64,000 nt of DNA, taken from NCBI RefSeq assembly GCF_030503675.1, contig NZ_CP129964.1:2728001-2792000 (forward strand), given 5' to 3'. The DNA comes from Lutimonas zeaxanthinifaciens. Lineage in GTDB: Bacteria; Bacteroidota; Bacteroidia; Flavobacteriales; Flavobacteriaceae. This document shows positions 25,693-46,068 of the stretch, piece after piece. Numbering within the stretch: the stretch's first letter is position 1; every line of letters begins with the position of its first letter. The notes under the pieces are model-generated. The model worked only from the letters and a program-made list of their open reading frames with translations, did no database searches and was not told the origin of the DNA. Both the position numbers and the translations under genes were made by a program.

Positions 25693-26784
25693 TCATTTTA
25701 ATTTGGAACCATAAACAACCCCACTGCTGTGGTCCATGCAGGCACCGGTTACACTTTTCAAACAATTGATTTCCTCCTGCTCTTTTAAAACTCCCAATAA
25801 GGCAAAGATTAATGCCTCTTTGAATTCTATGAGTTGATTGGATGGCAATTTAATTTCCGCCTTTGACAGTTCTGATATTCTTCGTATCATAAAATCATTA
25901 TAGGCCCCTCCTCCAGTGATCAAGACTGTTGAATTATCTTTATTTAAAATTTTCGATTTCGAATCGATTTCATTGGCTATTTGTAAGGCTATATGTTCAT
26001 TATAAGTCCTTAGAATATCTTTAAAGGATAGCCCATAATTTTCAATTATTGGCAAAATCATTTCCTCCACAAACTCATAACCTAAAGACTTTGGACGCTG
26101 CTGAAGGTAAAACTCCAGATTATTCAATTCATCCAGTAAACCCTTGTTGATCTGTCCTTGAGAAGCAACCTGGCCCTTATCATCGTAATCCAAGCCCCTT
26201 GATCGGGTGTAATGATTGAGCACGATGTTTGCCGGACAAATATCATAAGCGATTCTTTCAGAGCCAAGATCGAAGGAGATGTTGGCAAAACCACCTATAT
26301 TCAGACAAAAATCGTAAGTGCCGAACAACAATTTATCACCTATGGGCACTAGAGGTGCACCTTGTCCTCCAAGGGCGACATCCTGGACTCTGAAATCACA
26401 AATTACCTTGTATCCGGATCGCGCGGCAAGATGAGCACCACTTCCGATTTGAAGTGTATAATTCTTCTGTGGATCATGAAAAATAGTATGTCCGTGAGAA
26501 GCCAAAAAATCAACTTTTTTTATGTTTCTTTTCGCTATAAATTTCCTCACCTGATCCGCTAAAAAAATTCCGTACTCAGCATCCAGCTCTGTTAGTTTTT
26601 CTCCTGAAATTGTAAAAGCGCCCTGTAATTTATTTTTCCATAATTCTGAATATTCCAGCGATTCTGTTTGCAATAATTCAAAATCATATCCTGAATTTCG
26701 ACTAATTTTAACATATGCTAAATCAACCCCATCTAATGAGGTTCCGCTCATAATTCCAATAACATACCAATTTTTTATCTCCAT
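25693..26784 (-). CDS. anmK: Anhydro-N-acetylmuramic acid kinase
   Basis: AnmK phosphorylates 1,6-anhydro-MurNAc released from turned-over peptidoglycan, giving MurNAc-6-phosphate for recycling. The 363-residue protein starts with the ATP-binding motif GIMSGTSLDGVDLAYV and has FLASHGHTIFHDP, VALGGQGAPLVPIGD and NIGGFANIS, all family signatures, plus VLITGGGAYNDFMI near the C-terminus. It is the first gene of a pair with the amino-acid dehydrogenase. Its presence shows that the cell makes and recycles MurNAc, which matters for the murC/murD question at 40-43 kb. Confidence 0.93.
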   Translation of the reverse strand: MEIKNWYVIGIMSGTSLDGVDLAYVKISRNSGYDFELLQTESLEYSELWKNKLQGAFTISGEKLTELDAEYGIFLADQVRKFIAKRNIKKVDFLASHGHTIFHDPQKNYTLQIGSGAHLAARSGYKVICDFRVQDVALGGQGAPLVPIGDKLLFGTYDFCLNIGGFANISFDLGSERIAYDICPANIVLNHYTRSRGLDYDDKGQVASQGQINKGLLDELNNLEFYLQQRPKSLGYEFVEEMILPIIENYGLSFKDILRTYNEHIALQIANEIDSKSKILNKDNSTVLITGGGAYNDFMIRRISELSKAEIKLPSNQLIEFKEALIFALLGVLKEQEEINCLKSVTGACMDHSSGVVYGSKLK

Positions 26785-39665: not shown

Positions 39666-40394
39666 TTATTTTTCACAAACAATTTGATTGTAAAATTTTA
39701 AGTTTATCGTTTTATAGTCTGAAATTGTACTATCCAACATTATTTTTTGATAAAAAACTTTCAGTTTAGCAATTTTCTCTTCCGTTCTTGACAGATCTCC
39801 AAAAATGATCTTTTGGTCGCCTATCCTGGTCTTTAATTCGAACTGATTCGATTTTCCCCCATTGATCTGATCAATTCCAATGATCTGTTTTCTTAAAAAC
39901 TCATCATTTCGGATGGTATTCGATAAAACGATCATATCATTTTCTCCATCTACGGTAATTGTATCAGTGGTTATAGGAACCCTTGCAGAATAATTATCCG
40001 ATAAAGGCATTTTTGTGCCTAACTTATCGTAATAATAGGTTTCCGTTTCATTTGCTACTCTTAAAACAGGTGTTCTTTGTGTAATAATTGCCCCTAATTC
40101 CCCACTTAATGTTAGAAAAATCTCAGCGTTTTCAATCATTTCGTTACGCTTCAAAAATCCTTCTAAATTATTCAAATTTATATTTTCTTTCGATTGATTA
40201 TGATAAGCCTCCAATTTTTGTATTAACAACTTATTAACGGTTTCATAACTTATAAAAAGATTTTCACCGTTCTCGAAAATCACTTCCACAGAGTCGTTGA
40301 ATTTCTTTGCATTTCTATGTGCTGCAAAACCATACAAAAAAACTATAACCAGGCATAGTACGCTGAATTTTAATAAGTTAATGTATTTTTTCAT
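39666..40394 (-). CDS. ftsQ: Cell division protein FtsQ
   Basis: The 242-residue protein has a short cytoplasmic N-terminus, one membrane helix (LKFSVLCLVIVFLYGFAAH), a POTRA-like segment and a beta domain containing GELGAIITQRTPVLRV, the arrangement of FtsQ/DivIB. It belongs to the divisome bridge with FtsL and FtsB-like proteins. In related flavobacteria the gene before ftsQ is murC; here the preceding gene is murG, with only 97 bp in between. Confidence 0.88.
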   Translation of the reverse strand: MKKYINLLKFSVLCLVIVFLYGFAAHRNAKKFNDSVEVIFENGENLFISYETVNKLLIQKLEAYHNQSKENINLNNLEGFLKRNEMIENAEIFLTLSGELGAIITQRTPVLRVANETETYYYDKLGTKMPLSDNYSARVPITTDTITVDGENDMIVLSNTIRNDEFLRKQIIGIDQINGGKSNQFELKTRIGDQKIIFGDLSRTEEKIAKLKVFYQKIMLDSTISDYKTINLKFYNQIVCEK

Positions 40395-40421
40395 TTTGTT
40401 TTACTGTTTTAAAAACTATAA

Positions 40422-40460
40422 CAACCCCTTAATTAATCCCCTCACTAATTAAGAGGGTTG
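40422..40460. other. Hairpin in the space where murC is expected
   Basis: CAACCCCTTAATTA (40422-40435) can pair with TAATTAAGAGGGTTG (40446-40460) over 14 bp with a single bulged base and a ten-base loop. The 97-bp space between murG and ftsQ contains nothing else I can recognise. No convincing T run follows on the minus strand, so it is not a clear terminator. Confidence 0.6.
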
Positions 40461-40491
40461 CCATAGTTACCAAAGTATTTAGCACATAATT

Positions 40492-41583
40492 CTATTTTAA
40501 TATTTTATCAACCTCATCAGCAATTCGCTTTGTAGCGTTTGGCAAGGCCAGTTCTTTTATGTTTTTACTTAAAACACCTCTCTGATCAGTATCCTCGACA
40601 AGCAAACTTATCACCTCAGGTAAAGTGTCAATATTCTTTTCTTCAAGCAGTATCCCGGCATTCTTATCCGTGATGGCTTTCGCATTTTGGGTTTGATGAT
40701 CTTCCGCAACATTGGGTGAAGGAATCAAGATGACCGGTTTTCCTACAATGCATAGTTCAGAGATGGATCCGGCGCCGGCACGGCTGATCAACAAATCGGC
40801 TGCAGCATACAACAGATCCATCTTTTGAACATACTCCCAAACCTGTACCCCGTCCATTTGGCTAAACTGCTTGTATTCATCATAATACAGTTTGCCTGAC
40901 TGCCAGATAACCTGAACATCATTTTTCAGAATTGCTTGTATGTGCTTTTCCAGGGCCTTGTTTATGGCCCTTGCACCCAGGCTACCTCCCAAAACGGCGA
41001 TGGTCATTTTTCCGGGGTCTAGATTAAAATGAGCTATTGCTTCCTTTTTCTTCTTATCTATTTCCAGAAGATCCTGACGTACAGGATTTCCTGTTTTTAT
41101 TAATTTTTCTTTAGGGAAATATTGATCCAAGCCGTCATAGGCAACACAGATTTTTTGAACTTTCTTTGCCAATAGCCTGTTTGTAATTCCAGGGTATGAG
41201 TTCTGTTCCTGAATCAAACTTGGAATATTTTTTCGATTTGCCATGAACAAGGTTGGTCCTGAAGCAAAGCCCCCTGTCCCGATTACCACATTAGGTTTGA
41301 AATTTTTGATGATCTTTTTCGCATTGATCAGACTTGAAAGGAGCTTAAATGGGAAAGTGAGATTCTTTAAACTCAGACTCCTCTGGATTCCTGTAATATT
41401 AAGTCCTTTTATTTCATAACCCGACTGAGGTACTTTTTCCATTTCCATCCTGCCTTTGGCCCCCACAAATAAAAAATTTGATTCCGGATATCTTTCCTTC
41501 AGTTCATTGGCAATGGCAATGGCCGGGTAGATATGCCCTCCTGTACCTCCTCCGCTAAGCATTATATTAACCGATTGCTTCAT
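40492..41583 (-). CDS. murG: UDP-GlcNAc:lipid I transferase MurG
   Basis: The 363-residue membrane-associated glycosyltransferase makes lipid II from lipid I. It has the N-terminal glycine loop [19 protein letters not shown] (about 10-28), [11 protein letters not shown], the second-domain [15 protein letters not shown] and the donor-site phrase [13 protein letters not shown], with [14 protein letters not shown] after it. All are family hallmarks, and the protein appears complete. Its start overlaps the ftsW stop by 17 bp. An intact MurG implies that lipid I is still made. Confidence 0.96.
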
Positions 41584-42769
41584 GTAATATATCTAAAGGG
41601 TTATCTAATTTATCTTTTTGTTTAGCGGCAATCACCTTGTGATCAGATGCACTTACACTTAAGACGATTCCAATGGCAAAACAGGTCATCCAGATTGAAG
41701 TTCCTCCGGTACTGATTAGCGGTAATGGCTGGCCGGTAACCGGAAATAATCCAACTGCAACAGCCATGTTGATCATTGCCTGAAAAATAATGGGTAATCC
41801 TACTCCAAGACAGAGTAAAGTGCCAAATATAGTTGTTGATTTCGTGGCTATAATTACGATCCTGAACAATAAGCCAAGGAAGAAAATAATTATTGAAATG
41901 GCACCCAACAATCCGAATTCCTCTCCAATGATGGCATAAATAAAATCGGATGATGACTGTGGAAGAAAATTCTTTTGAACACTTTTTCCGGGCCCCTTGC
42001 CATAAATTTCTCCGGAGGCTATTGCTATTTTCGCTTTTTCGGCCTGGTAATTATCTTCAGATTCACCGGAAACAAAATTTTCTATCCTGCTTGACCAGGT
42101 TGAAATCCTACTGTTCTTCATCGCATCCGGAAATGCTCTCGCGCTCAGGATAAACAAGGTAAAACATAAAAGACCTACCCCCAGAATAGAAAAGATATAC
42201 TTTAAAGGATACCCCCCCAGAAATACCAGTATGATTACCATGGCAAAAGTTATCGCTGTAGTAGAAAAATTGGCTGGTAGGATAAGAGCGAGCACGGCTC
42301 CAACAGGCAGCCACATATAGAGTACACTCTCTTTAAACGTGATCTCTTTTTCTTTATTTCTTGCCAGATATCTGGCCACATAGATCATGACAACCACTGA
42401 GGCCAGCGTTGAGGTCTGAAATCCGATACCAATCAAAGGAATACTGATCCATCGGCTGGCATTCGCACCTTCAATAACCGTTCCCTGTGCCAGGGTGTAT
42501 ACCAGGAGCAAAATCACAACCGGAAGCATCAGTACCGATAATCCACTGAAATACCTGTATGGAACCTTATGGGTTGTATAGACTATCACAAATCCGAGTA
42601 GCAACAAAATAGCATGCTTAAGCAAATATCCAAGGGTGGTTCCTTTGCCTGCAACATAAACAAGATTTGTACTTGCACTGTAAACAGGCAGGAATGAAAA
42701 TATAGCCAAAACGGCGATGATCGCCCAGATGGTCTTGTCTCCTTTGATATTTTCTAAAAACCTCGTCAT
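41567..42769 (-). CDS. ftsW: SEDS glycosyltransferase FtsW
   Basis: The 400-residue membrane protein polymerises lipid II at the septum with its partner FtsI. About ten hydrophobic segments are seen, and the periplasmic loop and helix motifs include [28 protein letters not shown]-like text ([18 protein letters not shown]) and [19 protein letters not shown], all SEDS signatures. The protein is complete. It follows the murD remnant by 15 bp and precedes murG with a 17-bp overlap. Confidence 0.95.
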
Positions 42770-42784
42770 TTAATTCTAATTTTC

Positions 42785-43333
42785 CTACAAATGCCTTACT
42801 GCTTCCTTGAAGCGATTTCCTCTATCTTCAAAACTCTCACCTTTCTTCTCACATTTTCCTGCCGGTGAAAAAAGAATACTTTCTCCTTCTTTACCCAGCT
42901 TATACGCAATTTTAACCGCATCGCGAATACAGGTAGTTTCAATCATAAAATCCACAACGCTCCCAAAAGTTTCGATAAGCTTATCATTATTCTCTCCAAG
43001 GCAAATAATGGCGCTCACTTTTTCATTGACAAGTGGAAGGAGTATCTCATAATCATTGGCTTCATCATTTCCGCCAGCAATCCAGATTGTGGTATTCTCC
43101 ATGGATTCAAGCGCGTAATAGGATGCGTTTACATTTAGCGCTTTTGAATCATTGATATATTGTGAACCGTTTATGGTCAACACCTTTTCAAGCCTGTGTT
43201 CTTCATTCTCGAAGTCCGAAAGACAATTTCTGATCGTTTCCTTTCTTACCTTCATCAAATCAGATAATGTACTTGAAGCCATCGCATTTTTAACATTAAA
43301 ATTGGTTTGCAAGGCAAAAGATGAAATACTCAT
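42785..43333 (-). pseudogene. murD: C-terminal remnant of MurD ligase
   Basis: The frame encodes only 182 residues, against about 445 for MurD (UDP-MurNAc-L-Ala:D-glutamate ligase). It lines up with the end of the ATP domain and the C-terminal domain: NVKNAMASS (13-21), HRLEKVL, YINDSKALNVNASYYAL (59-75) and EDRGNRFK (169-176). The UDP-binding domain and the P-loop are gone; only 29 bp separate its ATG from the mraY stop, so nothing is left upstream. The GKHN phrase before NVKNAMAS reads TNFN. NDSKAT reads NDSKAL. GGxDKGNDY reads GGNDEANDY. SPACASFDxFKNYEDRG reads SPAGKCEKKGESFEDRG with length kept. Activity as a ligase is excluded. It may be a decaying gene or a retained fragment with another role, since no stop or frameshift interrupts it. 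Confidence 0.85.
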
Positions 43334-43362: not shown

Positions 43363-44595
43363 TTATCTTACTTTAAGGGTCAGAATCGAGATTACAGCCA
43401 GTAATATCCCTACGATCCAAAACCTTGTAACTATTTTACTTTCGTGATAACCGCGTTTTTGATAATGATGGTGCAAAGGAGCCATCAAAAAAATTCTCTT
43501 TCCTACACCAGTTTTCTTTCTCGTATACTTGAAATATGAAACCTGAAAAACCACTGAAAGGTTCTCAGCCAAAAATATTCCGGCAAGAATGGGAATCAGA
43601 AATTCCTTTCTGACTGATAATGCAATAACGGCTATCACGGCACCAATTGTCAAACTACCGGTATCCCCCATAAATACCTGGGCGGGATAGGTATTGTACC
43701 AAAGAAAACCTACAAGTCCTCCTACAAAAGCACTTACGAAAATTGTAATCTCCCCGGAATTTGGTATGTACATTACATTGAGATAATCGGCAAAAATGAT
43801 ATTACCTGAAACCCATGCAAAGATGGCCAGGGCTAAAACTATAATCGCAGAACTACCTGCTGCCAGCCCATCGATACCATCGGTTAAGTTGGCTCCGTTT
43901 GAAACAGCTGTGATGATAAATATTACGATGACCACAAAAAACAGCCAAACGTAGTCCTTGGACCAGTCCCCCATCCAGGTAAGAAGATTTGCGTAGTCAA
44001 ATTCATTGTTCTTAACAAAAGGAATTGTAGTCTTCGTAGATTTTTCAGCTTCTCCAAATCGGTTCGAGGAAATGGTAAGTTCCTGGCTAATGACCACTTC
44101 ACCATGTCTTAGCTTTTCTTTGACAACCACATCCGGATTAAAGTAAAGCATGAGCCCAACAAATGCCCCTAAGGTAATTTGTCCAACTATCTTGAACCTT
44201 CCTTTAAGTCCTTCTTTGTTCTTTTTGAAGACCTTGATATAATCATCAATGAATCCGATAATTCCCATCCACACCGTGGTAACTATCAAAATGATGATAT
44301 AGATATTATCTAGTTTTGCAAAAAGAAATACAGGAATTAAAGTAGCCAAAATGATGATGACACCACCCATGGTAGGCGTACCCTGTTTTTGAACCTGCCC
44401 TTCCAGTCCAAGGTCTCTGATAGATTCTCCAACCTGCAGCCTTCTTAGCTTGTCTATAATTTTTCTTCCGTAAATAGTTGAAATCAGAAGTGAAAAGGCA
44501 AAGGCAAGGGCTGATCTAAAGGAAATATACTGAAAGAGTCCAGTTCCCGGAAGGCTTGTGTTCTCATCTAAAAATTCAAATAAATAATATAGCAT
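43363..44595 (-). CDS. mraY: Phospho-MurNAc-pentapeptide transferase MraY
   Basis: This 410-residue polytopic membrane enzyme forms lipid I from UDP-MurNAc-pentapeptide and undecaprenyl phosphate. Motifs include [31 protein letters not shown] (the Asp-Asp pair), [14 protein letters not shown] and [12 protein letters not shown], plus [11 protein letters not shown] for the HHH cluster. All active-site residues are present. Between the second and third groups lies the extra periplasmic-loop segment seen in Bacteroidota. Its substrate needs the products of MurC to MurF, so the damaged murD and missing murC are puzzling. Confidence 0.96.
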
Positions 44596-44604
44596 TCTGG
44601 GATT

Positions 44605-46068
44605 CTATTTATTCAGTTCAGTTAATATTTGTTTTGTAATTACAAAGTCGTCAAACCCGGTTTTTTCGTTACCTATGATCTGATATGTTTCATGCCCTTT
44701 CCCTGCAACCAAAATGATATCTCCTTCATTTGCGAGCTTACAGGCCGTTTTTATTGCTTGTTTTCTATCAACTATGGTTATGGTTTTTTTGTAATTCTCG
44801 GGCCTCACTCCGGCTTCCACTTCCTTCAATATCTCCTCAGGATCTTCACTTCTGGGGTTGTCAGAAGTAAACACTACCTGATTGCTTAAACTTGAAGCGA
44901 TATTTCCCATTTTTGGTCTTTTGGCTTTGTCTCTGTCTCCACCACAACCAACAACAGTGATCACCTGTTCGTTAAAAGTTCGGATGGAATTTATTGTTTC
45001 AAGCACGTTCTTAAGGGCATCAGGCGTATGGGCATAATCAATAATTGCATTTATTCCGCCTTTTGAGATGGCATGCTGAAAACGACCTGAAACATTCTCA
45101 AGCTCACTCAGGACCCTCAGGTTTTCATATCTGTCCATACCGATGATATCAGAACAGGCGTAGATAGCCAAAAGGTTGTAAGCATTGAATGTGCCAATTA
45201 ATTTGGTCCATACCTCCTGCCCGTCAATATTTAAAAGAAGCCCGTTAAACTGATTTTCTATGATCCTTGCCTTATAATCAGCTTCTGTCTTCAAGGCATA
45301 TGAGAATTTCTTCGCCCGCGTGTTTTGAAGCATCACCTGGCCGTTTTTATCATCAATATTCACAAGTGCAAATGACTGAGGAGAAAGATGATCGAAGAAT
45401 GATTTTTTTACATCACGATACTCCGCAAAAGTTTTGTGATAATCTAAATGATCATGGGTTAAATTCGTAAAAATCCCCCCCTTGAAGTTTAAACCTGCCG
45501 TCCTTTTCTGATGGATACCATGTGAACTCACCTCCATAAAACAATGGCTGACACCCAGATCGGCCATTTCTCGCAAAACCCTATTAATGGTGAGGGAATC
45601 GGGAGTAGTATGAGTTGCATCGATTTCCTTTTCCCCGATCACAACTTTTATAGTCGAAATCAAACCGCTTTTAAAACCTGCTTTTTTAAACTGTTCAGCA
45701 AGAAGGGTGGCAATTGTAGTTTTTCCGTTCGTTCCGGTAACGCCCACCAGCGTAAGCTCCTCCGAAGGATTATCGTAAAAATTTGCAGCTAAAATTGCCA
45801 GGGCTTCATCGCTGTCCTTCACTCTGACAAAGGTCACTTCTTCATTTATTTTGACAGGAAACTCCTGACATATGACAACTTTGGCTCCATCCTGAATTGC
45901 CTTTTCAATAAATTGATGACCATCAAACCGTAGTCCTTTTTGAGCGACAAAAACTGAATCGGCGCTGATCTTTCTCGAATCGAATTCAAGGGCACGCACC
46001 GGAACATCAGTAGAACCACTTACCGACTCTACGGATACCCCATATAATATGTCTCTTAAATTCTTCAA
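44605..46068 (-). CDS. murE: UDP-MurNAc-L-Ala-D-Glu:meso-diaminopimelate ligase MurE
   Basis: The 487-residue cytoplasmic ligase adds meso-diaminopimelate to the stem peptide. It has the P-loop VGVTGTNGKTTIATLLA (about 108-124), the HTTPDS and SSHGIHQKR segments, IIDYAHTPDALKN, the diaminopimelate-selecting FTSDNPRSEDPEEI and a C-terminal AGKGHETYQ. All Mur-ligase motifs are intact, which contrasts with its paralogue murD. It follows ftsI by one base and precedes mraY by nine. Confidence 0.96.
   Translation of the reverse strand: MKNLRDILYGVSVESVSGSTDVPVRALEFDSRKISADSVFVAQKGLRFDGHQFIEKAIQDGAKVVICQEFPVKINEEVTFVRVKDSDEALAILAANFYDNPSEELTLVGVTGTNGKTTIATLLAEQFKKAGFKSGLISTIKVVIGEKEIDATHTTPDSLTINRVLREMADLGVSHCFMEVSSHGIHQKRTAGLNFKGGIFTNLTHDHLDYHKTFAEYRDVKKSFFDHLSPQSFALVNIDDKNGQVMLQNTRAKKFSYALKTEADYKARIIENQFNGLLLNIDGQEVWTKLIGTFNAYNLLAIYACSDIIGMDRYENLRVLSELENVSGRFQHAISKGGINAIIDYAHTPDALKNVLETINSIRTFNEQVITVVGCGGDRDKAKRPKMGNIASSLSNQVVFTSDNPRSEDPEEILKEVEAGVRPENYKKTITIVDRKQAIKTACKLANEGDIILVAGKGHETYQIIGNEKTGFDDFVITKQILTELNK

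Follow-up and report, generated by a model that had tools for sequence, protein, structure and literature searches.

The window analysed here is a stretch of 64,000 nucleotides of Lutimonas zeaxanthinifaciens, whose genome (G000; rated 100% complete) consists of a single contig of 3,534,456 bases. On its reverse strand (-) lies a cell-wall gene cluster. A full-length murE (44605..46068, -; NF001126, 629.7 bits against a cut-off of 373) is followed by mraY (43363..44595, -), an open frame of 182 codons that we call MurDc (42785..43333, -), ftsW (41567..42769, -), murG (40492..41583, -) and ftsQ (39666..40394, -). The names mraY, ftsW, murG and ftsQ are presumptive, and the first two had also been given in an earlier sequence-only reading of this DNA; in the compared loci mraY adjoins MurDc, and the order of ftsW, murG and ftsQ is conserved. 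According to the window frames and the locus comparison, ftsQ directly follows murG because murC is missing, and only a 97-bp gap (40395..40491) remains at the murC site of relatives. The sequence-only reading missed this loss. It held that the intact murE argues against decay of the cluster; murE is indeed intact, but murC is gone from the same cluster, which leaves the argument incomplete. As a separate observation, the fourfold-site divergence of ftsQ (39666-40394) is far below that of its neighbours in close pairs: between G000 and G013 it is 0.13 of 62 sites, compared with 0.36-0.54 for seven other cluster genes.

The MurDc frame starts with ATG and lies 29 bp from mraY. The murD model TIGR01087 matches it with an E-value of 1.1e-36 over positions 264-440 of 441, and Mur_ligase_C is the sole domain matched in a Pfam search. 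The earlier claims that the frame is the C-terminal part of MurD and that the P-loop and UDP-binding domain are absent were thus both borne out, and the motifs quoted with them (TNFN, DSKAL, GGNDE and SPAGKCEKKGES) are all present in the translation. The AlphaFold model (mean pLDDT 77.7) has good confidence from about residue 51 onwards, whereas the stretch ahead of it is poorly predicted. In a structure search of the PDB, the 33 best matches of this model were all MurD chains, and the match to 7u35_C (E-value 9.0e-12, TM-score 0.70 by query, 1.9 A) shows the C-domain fold. MurDc therefore resembles MurD in C-terminal domain, fold and gene position, whereas the N-terminal UDP-binding and central ATP-binding domains are missing and the substrate residues are lost.

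A second, full-length murD, for which the earlier reading had proposed a search, was not found: the best murD match in the whole of G000 is MurDc itself, whose 127.5 bits fall short of the cut-off of 211.95. Four further matches of the model are pieces of MurE (two), the MurC/Mpl-like ligase and MurF, and the murD profile search of this single-contig genome returned no other MurD. A split MurD with its front half encoded elsewhere was considered and rejected, for the Mur-ligase middle domain (Mur_ligase_M) occurs at four places only, in MurE, MurF, the MurC/Mpl-like ligase and FolC, with no orphan among them.

The same condition holds across the genus. None of the 22 Lutimonas genomes has murD or murC over the cut-off, while the MurDc fragment is found in 20; the two genomes lacking it are G005 (83% complete) and G007 (61% complete). 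Since the same frame recurs in 20 of 22 genomes at 67-96% identity, chance and assembly error are excluded as its source. MurC and MurD are both gone from Lutimonas, and the front of murD is lost. Lutimonas G004, G007, G010 and G011, and also G034, have longer frames of about 860-898 aa that include a MurC-like stretch; judged by length, they may be cyanophycin-synthetase-like.

Elsewhere in the family, full murD was present in all 15 genomes sampled from genera other than Lutimonas and, in a wider family sample, in 289 of 299 genomes. The ten exceptions comprise three Lutimonas genomes (G000, G004 and G013); G172 and G325 of genus g148, with a 182-aa fragment; G157 and G315 (g133) and G245 (g221), with shorter MurD fragments; G222 (g198); and G096. 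In G222 the space separating mraY from ftsW holds a frame of 172 aa that matches murD positions 306-418 at 5.8e-8, although the fragment profile finds no match in this genome. For G096 (8% contamination), the family sample gave no murD over the cut-off and no fragment. G044 and G057, from another family of the order, have neither murC nor murD and no fragment; their family has genomes of about 1.7 Mb and retains MurE, a Mur frame of MurF size and the MurC/Mpl-like ligase. The gene murC scored over its cut-off in 5/5 tested genomes with full murD and in 0/9 tested genomes without it. Within a class sample, 389 of 396 genomes have full murD. The seven without it, judged by E-value, are G000 and G409, G607, G613, G684, G690 and G698; the last six may be further losses, or in some cases contig breaks. 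A plasmid search matched 43 records, all at less than 60% identity; among the five matches listed, three were annotated as murD, one record was unannotated and one was unannotated under the match.

The spacing of the cluster genes reflects these differences. Gene ends were projected from tblastn matches, so the gaps are approximate, and loci cut by contig ends were excluded. The mraY-ftsW and murG-ftsQ gaps measure 1329-1803 bp and 1345-2584 bp in 23 full-murD loci; 588-620 bp (21 loci) and 91-173 bp (18 loci) in Lutimonas and g148; 548-583 bp (3 loci) and 7-15 bp (2 loci) in g133 and g221; and 36-38 bp and 14-19 bp in G044 and G057. The murG-ftsQ gap of G222 is -9 bp. We built FastTree trees from seven concatenated cluster proteins in two runs, a broad one and a second that included 9 Lutimonas loci out of 20 and for which G044 and G057 were chosen as the root. 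In the broad tree the 20 loci of Lutimonas and the two of g148 form one clade (1.0), with genus g148 nested within Lutimonas, and the sister of this clade is G023, a genome with full murD (0.987 in the broad tree, 0.998 in the second). The genera g133, g221 and g198, in which murC and the front part of murD are likewise lost while the C-domain persists, form another clade (0.998, second tree), and full-murD genomes lie in between; the broad tree gives weak support for the exact position of this clade (0.534). A tree of the C-domain also separates the groups and places G222 by itself at the end of a very long branch, and the truncation points differ slightly between the fragment groups. As the trees separate the clades and a single loss would require full murD and murC to have been regained, the simplest reading of these phylogenies is two origins of murC loss with a retained MurD C-domain.

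The sequence-only reading had left two options for the frame, very recent decay or another use, and had proposed dN/dS across relatives as a check. For MurDc, dN/dS ranges from 0.026 to 0.103 in 12 species pairs, three of which have dS values of at least 1.95, near saturation. Where dS was estimable, the corresponding ranges are 0.019-0.111 for MurE, 0.009-0.056 for MraY and 0.082-0.165 for FtsQ; MurG gives 0.031-0.078 except for one pair at 0.303, which has 81% amino-acid identity. At the fourfold sites of MurDc the divergence in seven pairs is 0.38-0.61, similar in size to that of MurG and FtsA, and the combination of low dN/dS with diverged fourfold sites places the constraint on the protein. 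The genus copies are 180-183 aa long, the frame is intact in 20/20, and ATG stands at the same aligned place in 20/20 (19 directly; in G001 within an upstream extension). MurDc thus shows neither the relaxed selection nor the frame damage of a pseudogene; it is under purifying selection and is not decaying. Very recent decay is not supported either by these ratios or by a truncation shared by the whole genus and its nested genus, while another use fits. The result warns against annotating the gene as a decayed murD.

Selection has not preserved the substrate site. We aligned 22 fragments (20 from Lutimonas, 2 from g148) with 24 full MurDs, matching columns to flavobacterial MurD, as had also been proposed. 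Thr321 and Ser415 are presumably D-Glu-site residues of MurD. Lys348 is named as such a residue in a passage of PMC8788868. All three columns are kept in 24/24 full MurDs, compared with 2/22 fragments for Thr321, 9/22 for Lys348 and 11/22 for Ser415; the window copy lacks all three, and the four copies of the second clade keep them in 1, 0 and 0 cases, respectively. The histidine of the KHN motif is Phe in 22/22 fragments. Mean column entropy, compared between the 22 fragments, which come from a narrower group, and 23 MurDs (G066 dropped), was 0.63 vs 0.06, 1.12 vs 0.46 and 1.28 vs 0.28 in the three substrate loops, 0.75 vs 0.98 in the rest of the domain and 0.58 vs 1.17 in the first 45 residues. 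The fold is kept, while the three substrate loops that are near-invariant in real MurD have drifted; relaxation is confined to these loops and does not extend to the remainder of the domain. Judged from its missing domains and lost D-Glu contacts, MurDc cannot be a stand-alone MurD ligase, in agreement with what the sequence-only reading had concluded.

What remains of the pathway? G000 keeps MurE, MurF, MraY, MurG, FtsW, Ddl and MurI, and because of this set a stem peptide containing D-Glu is likely. MurI is found in 7/8 Lutimonas tested, 2/2 g148, G157 and G245; the MurI search gave no match in G222, G044, G057 or the fragment-bearing G315. An anhydro-MurNAc kinase gene (AnmK; 25693..26784, -; NF007144, 516.1 bits against a cut-off of 436) indicates that wall recycling is present. 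Among the ligases that remain, the candidate for acting on UDP-MurNAc is the MurC/Mpl-like one. In G000 it has 450 aa and scores under both curated cut-offs, with 238.7 of 335.1 bits for murC and 165 of 388.7 for mpl. It is near full length in 19/22 Lutimonas genomes, the others (G006, G018 and G020) being 67-84% complete. Relatives with a true murC carry it as well, and its tree follows species relations. It was not found in G245, and G172 yielded just a 210-aa frame. We also looked for retooling of this enzyme by comparing 16 rows from Lutimonas and g148 with 18 rows from murC-bearing relatives, leaving out the incomplete frames L039, L041, L042 and L044 and the second G021 copy L048. There was no sign of it: only two changes are specific to Lutimonas at sites conserved in the murC-bearing relatives.

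A dipeptide ligase was not seen among the frames inspected by eye beside the MurC/Mpl-like gene, MurI, the epimerase-like gene, MurF and Ddl of G000. ATP-grasp_4 was rejected as a universal replacement, being strong in 3/12 MurC/MurD-less genomes (G172, G325 and G245) and in 0/8 with full murD. Epimerase-like enolases were rejected as a marker, for they match 19/20 genomes with or without murD and hence do not discriminate. In G245 an ATP-grasp ligase (L244:2-1144, -) directly adjoins a dipeptide-epimerase-like gene (1169-2179, -) that scores below the curated cut-offs; this pair could be what Ala-Glu dipeptide synthesis looks like. The ATP-grasp_4 genes of g148 (L245:7042-8133, -, in G325; L246:2150-3319, +, in G172) are not beside an epimerase, and no similar gene was found in the four Lutimonas tested.

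The explanation that we favour, and to which we give about an even chance, is that the MurC and MurD steps are bypassed by block transfer and that MurDc is a non-catalytic partner of the wall machinery. The MurC/Mpl-like ligase would attach a preformed block, either L-Ala-D-Glu or a longer stem peptide, to UDP-MurNAc, after which MurE and then MurF would complete the pentapeptide; the preformed peptide might be recycled, taken from other bacteria or made by a further ligase. MurDc would act as a folded, selected, non-catalytic scaffold or regulator binding the wall enzymes encoded around it. That it is selected, folded, non-catalytic, located in the middle of the cluster and retained in two clades after the loss of catalysis points to such a binding role. 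The proposed transfer resembles that of Mpl, the murein peptide ligase. Nevertheless, the known Mpl is a recycling enzyme beside MurC and MurD, whereas in Lutimonas its counterpart would be the sole entry and scores under the mpl cut-off. The dipeptide is also a poor substrate of the Mpl studied in PMC3060825, where the rates reported are 1.4 per min for L-Ala-D-Glu and 0.7 for L-Ala vs 260 for its tripeptide; L-Ala-D-Glu is accepted, slowly, at a rate about 200-fold below that of the tripeptide. Further points against block transfer are the scores under both cut-offs without a sign of retooling, the absence or partial state of the ligase in G245 and G172, and the lack of a dipeptide ligase among the Lutimonas searches. 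Moreover, G044 and G057 live without any fragment, and MurDc is thus not required by every MurC/MurD-less genome. The MurC/Mpl-like ligase might instead act as a slow MurC, a reading over which we prefer block transfer.

Scavenging differs from block transfer as proposed above by committing to an outside source: the cells would rely on L-Ala-D-Glu(-DAP) released by other bacteria, which the MurC/Mpl-like ligase would attach to UDP-MurNAc. We consider this rather unlikely. The failure to find a de novo dipeptide ligase in Lutimonas speaks for it, as does a precedent in Bacteroidota, the MurNAc auxotroph Tannerella forsythia, described in PMC5790795 as taking up a wall block from outside; that block is a sugar, however, not a peptide. 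MurI in most Lutimonas tested and MurE in the cluster point rather to D-Glu synthesis and DAP addition, and two Lutimonas species are named isolates. Stepwise addition of D-Glu, with MurDc giving a D-Glu-binding domain in trans to the MurC/Mpl-like ligase or MurE, would agree with the retention of MurI where MurDc is least changed (Lutimonas, g148, G157 and G245) and its absence from G222, G044 and G057, and with the Lys348 and Ser415 that persist in some copies. It is improbable given that Thr321 survives in just two copies, that none of the three residues is left in the window copy and that G315 has a fragment and no MurI match. The fixed position between mraY and ftsW would suit a frame retained merely as DNA or RNA, for example for ftsW expression, and a decaying pseudogene might also be imagined, yet selection on the protein alongside diverged fourfold sites makes both very hard to credit. 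An assembly or sampling artefact hiding a normal murD is a negligible prospect, with the frame common to 20 genomes, two of them named isolates, and G000 a single contig.

Among known systems, the MurD2/MurL pathway of Xanthomonas uses a full MurD homologue, whereas no such middle domain was found in G000. The literature matches listed, mainly open-access, held no report of a MurC/MurD-less Lutimonas with a MurD C-domain. All 13 full-length relatives aligned have a Met at the position where MurDc starts. No new start codon was thus required for the short form, and some of the ordinary MurD in a cell may already be produced as a C-terminal isoform. We tentatively suggest, while holding it doubtful, that walled bacteria of the Flavobacteriales switched at least three times to block transfer by a MurC/Mpl-like ligase, and that the MurD C-domain persisted in two of the clades concerned owing to a second, non-catalytic job in the wall or division machinery, one that ordinary MurD would have too.

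Walled bacteria are generally held to need both MurC and MurD, and the two enzymes are regarded as drug targets. A cultured marine genus without either would be a natural knock-out, in which a block-transfer route to the stem peptide would be directly testable, and Lutimonas would offer a clean system for asking if the MurD C-domain functions apart from catalysis. The loss of the two starter enzymes, together with a dead piece of MurD under strong selection, suggests an unusual wall route and a hidden second job for the tail of MurD.
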